A DNA stretch of 64,000 bases from a virus: positions 49,003 to 113,002 of the IMG/VR virus record IMGVR_UViG_3300042542_005394; one strand, 5' to 3'. The translations under genes and the position numbers were made by a program. Numbering within the stretch: the stretch's first letter is position 1; each line of letters opens with the position of its first letter. The notes beneath the pieces were generated by a model, which saw only the letters and a list, made by a program, of their open reading frames with translations, searched no databases and was not told where the DNA came from. Of this stretch, positions 48,500 through 63,269 are shown piece after piece.

Positions 48500-49426
48500 T
48501 TATATAATAGGTTTGATGATTCCGTTTCCTTCGTAATTCCTCTTCCCTTTGTATTTTTCCTGTTTTAGTTTCAGACTATTGCGCGCAAACGCCGCTACAT
48601 AATCTTCGCGTGTCCTTAGCATATTGTCAATCGCAGAGTTTGGATTTTTTCTAAAGTATGACAATAGTAAAGCAGCACAACCGACCGCAAATGGAGTAGC
48701 CATGCTAGTGCCGCTCATTGAGGCATAACTATTACCGGGAACCGAGCTTACAATATTAGCCCCAGGAGCCAAAAAGTCTAATTCTGGACCACTGCAACTA
48801 AATTCACAAATTTCTAACTGTTCATTAATAGCTCCTATGCTAACTGTATCTTTATACTTGGCAGGATACTGTATACCTGACTCTATGCCACTATTACCAG
48901 CAGCACAAAATACTACAACACCTTTACTTCTTGCGTAAGATATTGCCTGTTCCATAGGGGAATGGGGATATTCAGACCCCAGAGACATGGTGATGATGTC
49001 TGCTCCGTTGTCTACAGCCCACAGTATCGCGTCTGTGACACTTTTATTATCTCCTCGACCCGAACCGTCAAGAGCTTTAATTGGCATAATCTTGGCTCTC
49101 GGAGCGATTCCTACCATACCTATCTCGTTATTTGAAGCTGATATTGTTCCAGCTACATGAGTTCCGTGAGAATTATCATCTATTGGATCTTTGTTTTTAT
49201 CTACAAAATTAAATCCTTGAATTAAATTATCTTTTATATCATCATGATTGAGATCACAACCAGTATCTATAACTGCTATCTTAACTCCTTCACCCTGAGA
49301 ACTTCTCCAACTTTTTTCCACATTAAATGTTTTAATGGGCCATGGATAAAATTGAATAGAGTTTCTGTCTAAACCAAATAGATCTGTTCTAACGTGAGGT
49401 AGTAGTTCGCACTGTTTTCTTCTCAT
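48500..49426 (-). CDS. Subtilisin-like serine protease (S8)
   Basis: 308 residues from the ATG at 49426, which overlaps the trypsin-like stop (ATGA). Catalytic triad: D54 in AVIDTGCD, H87 in DNSHGTHVAGT, S241 in SGTSMATP; oxyanion Asn in AAGNSG. No signal peptide or pro-domain is visible, so it probably acts in the cytoplasm or virion. Its translational coupling to a secreted trypsin-like protease is unusual. Confidence 0.92.
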   Translation of the reverse strand: MRRKQCELLPHVRTDLFGLDRNSIQFYPWPIKTFNVEKSWRSSQGEGVKIAVIDTGCDLNHDDIKDNLIQGFNFVDKNKDPIDDNSHGTHVAGTISASNNEIGMVGIAPRAKIMPIKALDGSGRGDNKSVTDAILWAVDNGADIITMSLGSEYPHSPMEQAISYARSKGVVVFCAAGNSGIESGIQYPAKYKDTVSIGAINEQLEICEFSCSGPELDFLAPGANIVSSVPGNSYASMSGTSMATPFAVGCAALLLSYFRKNPNSAIDNMLRTREDYVAAFARNSLKLKQEKYKGKRNYEGNGIIKPII

Positions 49427-61891: not shown

Positions 61892-61910
61892 AAAAGTTCC
61901 TTTATTTAAG

Positions 61911-62202
61911 TACCCCCGGTCGGACTTGAACCGACAAGCCATTACTGGCAACGGATTTTCTTACTACTATAACTTTCGTTACCATTTCTGTTTGTAGTCT
62001 GGACTTTACCTTAACCGTAGTTATACAACATTAGGTTCCTGCCGTCAAGTCTCTACACCTTCTTAATATTTCTATTAAGCTTGGCTCGGTATTGCCATTT
62101 TACAGGTTTCACCGAATTTGACAGGTTCTACTTTAAAGATTTCTCTCTAAGCACTCCAATTTACTAAAAGTCCGTTGTGTTTGCCAATTTCACCACGGGG
62201 GC
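61911..62202 (-). tRNA. tRNA-Leu(UAA), interrupted by a group I intron
   Basis: Spliced tRNA is 84 nt: exon 1 at 62168-62202, exon 2 at 61911-61959. Acceptor GCCCCCG/CGGGGGT (one G-U at 1-72), D-arm GTG/CAC, anticodon stem ACGGA/TCCGT with loop CUUAAAA giving anticodon UAA, long variable arm GCCA-GTAA-TGGC (type II tRNA) and T-stem GTCGG/CCGAC. No CCA is encoded. Promoter TAGACA-17-TATGAT is 20-50 nt upstream. Confidence 0.9.
61960..62167 (-). ncRNA. Group I intron in the anticodon loop of tRNA-Leu(UAA)
   Basis: 208 nt inserted after U34. P1: exon ACUU pairs with intron GAGU, ending in the obligatory U-G. The core reads AATTCGGTGAAACC / ATACCGAGCC (P4, TCGG-CCGA), GAGACTTGACGG (with GACTT) and AAAGTCCAGAC (AAGTC) for P7, and the intron ends in G. 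This sequence and the insertion site are those of the cyanobacterial/plastid tRNA-Leu(UAA) group I introns. No open reading frame inside. Confidence 0.88.
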
Positions 62203-62222
62203 ATGATGCCTCCAAGCTACAT

Positions 62223-62251
62223 ATCATAACGATTGGTTAGATGTTTGTCTA
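62223..62251 (-). promoter_or_regulatory. Sigma70-like promoter for tRNA-Leu
   Basis: Minus strand TAGACA (62246-62251), 17-bp spacer, TATGAT (62223-62228); five of six matches in both boxes. Predicted start about 13 nt before the tRNA 5' end. Lies in the gap 62203-62308. Confidence 0.6.
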
Positions 62252-62308
62252 TGTGTCTCTACCAATATTTATGAGGGATGTAGTTGGAAGCATTTGGTTT
62301 AACTAAAC

Positions 62309-62593
62309 TCAGCCGTTAGAATGAGCAGCCTTTAGACGGCGAACTGTCTCAGCCATAGCCTCGACATTATCCACTGTCTTTGTGGGCTTTGCTCGCTCCA
62401 TCGCGGGCAGTTCAATACCCTTCTTAACCAAAGCTGCCTTTGTACGAGCATAACGAGCCATCGTACTAGCAACCTTCTGACCAGTCTTACCAGCAATCTC
62501 AGCATACGTCTTGCTGGAAAAAACTGCTTCAAGAAACTGGTCATCACTGCAACGAACACGACTTTGCTTTTCAACAGTAGTAACTTCAGCCAT
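62309..62593 (-). CDS. Small protein, HTH-like, early gene
   Basis: 94 residues from the ATG at 62593 (GGAGG 6 nt upstream). Helical sequence SDDQFLEAVFSSKTYAEIAG, KTGQKVASTMARYARTKAAL resembles a helix-turn-helix followed by a basic helix. Codon use is clearly richer in GC than the neighbours. Driven by a near-perfect sigma70 promoter 62673-62701. Possible early regulator; family not recognised. Confidence 0.6.
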   Translation of the reverse strand: MAEVTTVEKQSRVRCSDDQFLEAVFSSKTYAEIAGKTGQKVASTMARYARTKAALVKKGIELPAMERAKPTKTVDNVEAMAETVRRLKAAHSNG

Positions 62594-62651
62594 AATCAAC
62601 CTCCAAATTCTTAACCAATCTTACAAGTGAGGCTCAGTCGCATGACTGATC

Positions 62652-63269
62652 TTACCTCGCGTTGTTCCTTCGATTATACAGTATGGTATCGTCAATGTCA
62701 ATGGGCGACCTTGATTTTTTTTTCGTTCTCGCCAGAAATTGTTGTTGAATGTCTTTAAAACTCCAAGGAGTACCAAACTGTACCCCATCTCTTTTATTAT
62801 CCACGCCTACATCAAGCGTGAGCGTTCCAGAAGCAACGTCCTCACGATGCAGTCTGCCATGAACATGACCATACAGCATCCAACTTTTTCTATAACTACC
62901 AGACCAACTTCTCATTGGATAATGACACATAAATATTTTTTGATTGGTATACAGAATCATTTTTTGATATTCTATACTGGCAAATTCATTTCCAAACTTA
63001 TTTGCATTATCATGATTACCAAGAATTATATGAACGTACTGACTATTAATTCTTTCTCTGTATTCTTTAACATCTCCGCCTTTATGGCAGAAATCTCCTA
63101 TAATATAAAGAATATCATTTTTTGAGACTGTTTCATTTATAGACGAAATTATAGCGTCATCCATTTCTATTTTATGTGAGAAAGGACGATTGCAATATCC
63201 TCGTATCTTATCATGCCCCAGATGCAAATCAGCAGTAAAAAATACCTTCTGACCAACTATCCTATCCAT
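62652..63269 (-). CDS. Metallophosphatase (calcineurin-like)
   Basis: 205 residues. All five metal motifs: FTADLHLGH (DxH), YIIGDFCH (GDxxH), IILGNHDN (GNHD), MCHYPM, and YGHVHGR (GHxH). Small phage phosphoesterases of this kind cleave phosphate mono- or diesters. The strong promoter for the gene at 62309 lies inside its last codons. Confidence 0.9.
   Translation of the reverse strand: MDRIVGQKVFFTADLHLGHDKIRGYCNRPFSHKIEMDDAIISSINETVSKNDILYIIGDFCHKGGDVKEYRERINSQYVHIILGNHDNANKFGNEFASIEYQKMILYTNQKIFMCHYPMRSWSGSYRKSWMLYGHVHGRLHREDVASGTLTLDVGVDNKRDGVQFGTPWSFKDIQQQFLARTKKKSRSPIDIDDTILYNRRNNAR
62673..62701 (-). promoter_or_regulatory. Near-consensus sigma70 promoter
   Basis: Minus strand TTGACA (62696-62701), 17-bp spacer, TATAAT (62673-62678): a perfect bacterial promoter, inside the end of the metallophosphatase gene and 80 nt before the ATG at 62593. 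The strongest promoter by sequence in this window. Confidence 0.88.

Follow-up and report, generated by a model that had tools for sequence, protein, structure and literature searches.

A 208-nt group I intron in a phage tRNA-Leu(UAA) gene is one of many phage tRNA introns and is probably mobile

The window, as we call the whole 64,000-nt stretch of phage DNA analyzed here (positions 49,003 to 113,002 of the virus record IMGVR_UViG_3300042542_005394), carries a tRNA-Leu(UAA) gene that is interrupted after U34 by a group I intron of 208 nt. This identification is confirmed by tRNA prediction, a covariance search and naturally intronless alleles, and the intron is not a one-off: it is one of many phage tRNA introns, recurrently present or absent at the same tRNA. 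We consider it likely that it is a mobile tRNA intron of phages, and that HNH endonucleases probably spread such introns in cis or in trans.

The preliminary description of this DNA had proposed a tRNA-Leu(UAA) gene split after U34 by a 208-nt insert with P1, P4 and P7 pairings and a terminal G, and all of these were recovered. ARAGORN run with introns found the split gene, and the spliced tRNA folds canonically (Table 1). The same program run blind to introns returned zero tRNAs in the window, illustrating that ARAGORN without its intron option misses split phage tRNAs; in the other 49 kb of the record, runs with and without introns yielded no further tRNA. The boundaries are fixed independently of any model, because relatives L291 and L292 share flanks and tRNA body (with few substitutions) and differ essentially by the intron, located exactly at CTT|AAAATC. 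In a covariance search the Rfam model RF00028 (Intron_gpI), which was also detected in Synechococcus elongatus as a positive control, matched positions 62177-61979 with 62.9 bits (E=1.4e-13, model positions 1-253), above the Rfam gathering cut-off of 50 bits, and no second match was found in the 113,002-base virus record.

Table 1. Features of the split tRNA gene and its upstream neighborhood, in window coordinates
Feature	Position	Strand	Basis
tRNA-Leu(UAA) gene, split by group I intron	61910-62202	-	ARAGORN with introns: 85 nt spliced
5' exon of tRNA-Leu(UAA), last base U34	62168-62202	-	ARAGORN with introns and intronless alleles, junction CTT|AAAATC
Group I intron, 208 nt, IC3-like, between GGACTT and AAAATCC	61960-62167	-	RF00028 and covariation (54 pairs)
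3' exon of tRNA-Leu(UAA), first base A35, class II long variable arm	61910-61959	-	ARAGORN
Conserved long hairpin directly 5' of tRNA, contains promoter-like -10	62206-62293	-	MFE -32.8 kcal/mol, z -7.4
Small gene between phosphoesterase and tRNA, no assigned function	62309-62599	-	ORF list; weak PHROG 19159
Phosphoesterase gene, conserved neighbor used to find syntenic relatives	62652-63269	-	PHROG 547

The window intron contains P1 (ACUU/GAGU, with the splice-site U.G pair), P3, P4, P6, P7, P8, P9 and a terminal G, and the group I core of P3-P8, P4, P6 and a G-binding P7 is found both by RF00028 and in covarying helices. Its length, an aligned P5 of 2 bp and its insertion after U34 agree, as judged from these features, with subgroup IC3, whose tRNA introns are compact, sit in the anticodon loop and have a small P5 lacking P5abc. 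This tRNA and insertion position are the classic site of the cyanobacterial and plastid tRNA-Leu(UAA) group I intron, and the earlier view of a compact, IC3-like intron at that site, devoid of an endonuclease of its own, was borne out, the 208 nt leaving no room for an endonuclease gene.

Folded alone, the window intron was mildly better than its shuffles by MFE (z -1.7), and so the structural argument rests on covariation. To this end, we aligned 28 divergent phage introns, each with 10 nt of either exon, and built by hand a model of 12 helices and 54 pairs, comprising P1, P2, P3, P4, P5, P6, P6a, P7, P8, P9 and inner stems. Across the 28 introns, 94.4% of the cells of this model, P3-P7 pseudoknot included, were paired, and changes on both sides were seen at 33 of the 54 pairs (290 cells versus 85.4 in shuffles). 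Moving the partner by 1-3 columns left pairing at only 28-43%, a slide control somewhat biased towards the model, which was derived from the window sequence; despite this derivation, the compensatory changes are far above the controls. Of the 28 introns, 27 retain the splice-site U.G pair and all have P7; P7 and most of P4 are invariant.

The phage is a large one, of which the record covers a linear fragment; contigs of relatives span up to 200-244 kb. The record encodes RIIA, RIIB, a UvsX-like recombinase, a DnaB-like helicase, a primase, a clamp loader, a ribonucleotide reductase and a DnaE-like polymerase; the phage is probably lytic, and its marker proteins indicated no clear host. The record's far end contains a single open reading frame of 5082 aa (L193, G000:C1:28-15276). 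A tRNA reading UUA is plausibly useful to this phage, since its GC content is 34% and UUA, at 37%, is the codon it uses most often for Leu.

The tRNA gene had also been credited with a promoter of its own, a claim that we found weak and rejected. The promoter-like match upstream of the tRNA (TAGACA-17-TATGAT, 10/12 positions) is one of 7 such matches in the region, where 3.2 were expected, and its -10 falls within a long, conserved hairpin of ~90 nt, on the 3' arm; the hairpin stops three bases short of the tRNA. In a divergent sister subfamily, the hairpin is kept with different but pairing arm sequences and the -10 is missing. A processing signal or another structured RNA is as likely here as a promoter, and the hairpin is possibly an RNA processing element.

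Using the phosphoesterase gene as a guide, we located syntenic relatives of the window locus. All 31 carry a tRNA with a UAA anticodon at this place, the intron being present in 23 and absent in 8, that is, plus and minus alleles occur at one site, as they do for mobile introns. Two kinds of tRNA body occur at the locus: class II, which the window has, and class I, whose variable arm is short. UAA tRNAs of both kinds harbor the same intron lineages and are intermixed on the intron tree. The class I form takes the place of the class II tRNA-Leu in L280, L284, L288, L291, L292 and L303, and class I UAA tRNAs were also seen in Prochlorococcus, Lactobacillus and Streptomyces phages.

Introns of this kind extend well past the syntenic relatives. 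A BLAST search of phage records revealed a like split tRNA-Leu in huge phages of 735 kb and 595 kb and in Agrobacterium phage Atu_ph07, in which no tRNA is annotated at that position, and a pattern scan identified 95 viral and 85 bacterial stretches. Pooling two pattern scans (one with a generic P7) and the neighbor-gene search, and after discarding 'ggc' calls (four, overlapping) and a single 'gaa' call, we counted at least 124 viral loci with an intron exactly between tRNA positions 34 and 35, the window and a near-identical copy included. The anticodons at the viral loci listed were at least 109 UAA, 10 UUU (Lys), 5 UGU and 3 GGU (both Thr). Chance tRNA calls were rejected as a source of these loci, as a brute-force caller found 121 with the real flanks and 0-6 with shifted ones. 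According to a 2014 review, phage introns had up to that time all been seen in protein genes, despite the many phage tRNAs (PMC3984707). In the open-access literature, we found no later report of group I introns in phage tRNAs, and the main text of the huge-phage paper does not mention introns. The idea that such an intron is rare to unheard of in phages agrees with the literature searched but not with the data, and the viral tRNA introns run counter to the rule, as it had been stated, that tRNA genes of phages stay free of introns.

Several loci are worth recording in their own right. Three contigs carry group I introns in both a Thr(GGU) and a Leu(UAA) tRNA (L049, L101 and L077), two of which (L049 and L101) hold an additional Met(CAU) candidate called by ARAGORN alone. 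Related introns split phage tRNA-Lys(UUU) at the same position in L053, L054, L196, L207, L236, L255, L261, L269 and L277, and the Opitutia contigs L105, L106, L121, L127, L141 and L142 have related introns in tRNAs of other kinds, where the insertion apparently lies elsewhere in the anticodon loop. Four conjugative Bradyrhizobium plasmids (CP094621.1, 160673-160925, and three more) match the split tRNA-Leu at 68% identity, with no gene listed there.

The match to the classic tRNA, position and compact type had suggested that the phage took its intron-split tRNA-Leu directly from a cyanobacterium or plastid, a scenario that the relationships among the introns make highly improbable. In a tree of 151 phage and bacterial introns, which included one approximate Anabaena sequence, the window intron lies within supported phage-only sets of 3, 10 and 16 rows (SH-aLRT 95-96). 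Its nearest relatives are phage introns (85-95% identity), while the closest bacterial copies found, from Flavobacteriales and Anaerolineae, share 70% and the Anabaena intron, an approximate sequence and the sole cyanobacterial sample, shares 61%. Proteobacterial introns mostly form a separate clade, and elsewhere on the tree phage and bacterial introns interdigitate. A search for the cyanobacterial-type P4 pattern matched four viral loci, with no tRNA among them, and BLAST of this approximate Anabaena intron against plasmids and phages gave no match. Moreover, the tRNA bodies have been shuffled separately from the intron. Though cyanobacteria are barely sampled, nothing specifically ties the window copy to cyanobacteria or plastids, and the acquisition proposed earlier is left without support.

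Could the intron instead be an old, vertically inherited and non-mobile resident of this phage lineage that is occasionally lost? It occupies one syntenic place in most relatives and the window copy has no endonuclease, as such a resident might; nevertheless, we regard this as unlikely, given that intron identity does not track gene identity. Thus, L309 and L291 share 64% identity in the neighbor gene and 91% in the intron, L301 and L284 share 84% and 99%, respectively, and L286 and L288, 93% alike in the neighbor gene, harbor two distinct intron lineages at one site (69% identity). The intron and the neighbor gene do not have a common history. Presence and absence of the intron require at least seven changes on the neighbor-gene tree, a tree blurred by phage recombination, and the empty label is clustered no more than shuffled labels; part of this pattern could come from introns having been lost instead of gained. 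It is more doubtful still, and in our view very unlikely, that the intron is kept because it serves the phage, for instance as a shield of the precursor anticodon against anticodon nucleases of the host, or as a timer of tRNA maturation. That many phages carry it, always in the anticodon loop among the called loci, would fit such a benefit, but the mature tRNA would be exposed again once spliced, the intron is dispensable, since empty sites are frequent, and the constraints of homing and splicing also explain the anticodon site.

A mobile intron remains the reading that we favor, and HNH genes of a single family point to how it may move. Members of this family reside inside the intron at L003, L058 and the bacterial L167, and free-standing members lie within 150 bp of the tRNA, upstream or downstream, at 29 of the 99 loci with enough flank, while none is found beside the tRNA at the 8 empty sites. 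When only syntenic loci are considered, an HNH gene is adjacent in 5 of 23 intron-plus and 0 of 8 empty sites, too few to prove a link. Neither the window nor the rest of the 113-kb record, which is possibly incomplete, contains an HNH gene of this family. The earlier characterization of a ribozyme kept without a homing endonuclease holds for the window intron itself, but not the immobility that it implies, in view of the recurrent gain or loss among relatives and the HNH genes in or beside their introns.

Taking these observations together, we infer the following course of events. The precursor RNA would fold such that an exogenous G attacks after U34, and exon joining would then yield a UUA-decoding tRNA suiting an AT-rich phage. 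The window intron would come from a pool in circulation at the UAA tRNA site of large phages; in other phages, members of this pool may enter uninterrupted UAA tRNAs and also those for Lys or Thr. HNH homing endonucleases, encoded within the intron or free-standing beside the tRNA, probably cut the intronless anticodon region, the putative target of the HNH proteins of the relatives L057 and L284 being intronless GGACTTAAAATCC tRNA genes. Recombination following cleavage could swap the tRNA body as well. The window copy, lacking an endonuclease, would represent either a passenger mobilized in trans or a stage after loss of the endonuclease.

The tRNA-Leu intron is the textbook example of an ancient, vertically kept intron. 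With at least 124 viral loci, empty sites, swapped tRNA bodies and nearby endonucleases at hand, the transfer of tRNA introns between bacteria by phages becomes testable. A wider proposal, which we put forward only tentatively and hold to be rather doubtful, is that large phages share endonuclease-less introns of tRNA anticodon loops, mobilized in trans by tRNA-adjacent HNH enzymes, and that phages, and not cyanobacteria, seeded bacterial tRNA-Leu introns such as those of Burkholderiales.

Compared with known systems, the window intron shares with the IC3 tRNA-Leu(UAA) introns of cyanobacteria and plastids the tRNA, the insertion between U34 and A35, a compact core and the absence of an endonuclease, yet it differs from them in P4 and in overall sequence (61% identity to the approximate Anabaena copy), resides in a phage and comes and goes between close relatives. 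With the tRNA-Leu(UAA) introns of Burkholderiales, Xanthomonadales and other bacteria, which among the 85 genome stretches are mostly 210-285 nt long, it has in common the site and the TCGGTGAA/CCGAGCCAAG P4 motif, whereas these mostly form their own clade and are at most 70% identical to it. The group I introns of phage protein genes, such as T4 td and those of Twort, are likewise phage-borne ribozymes, often associated with homing endonucleases, but interrupt protein genes, while the window intron interrupts a tRNA gene. Finally, the arrangement resembles the intronless or collaborative homing of T4 SegF and SegB, in which an endonuclease gene adjoins the element or its target and acts in trans, SegB being itself linked to a tRNA region (PMC13096335); here, by contrast, it is a family of HNH proteins, putative cutters, that lies beside or inside a tRNA intron.
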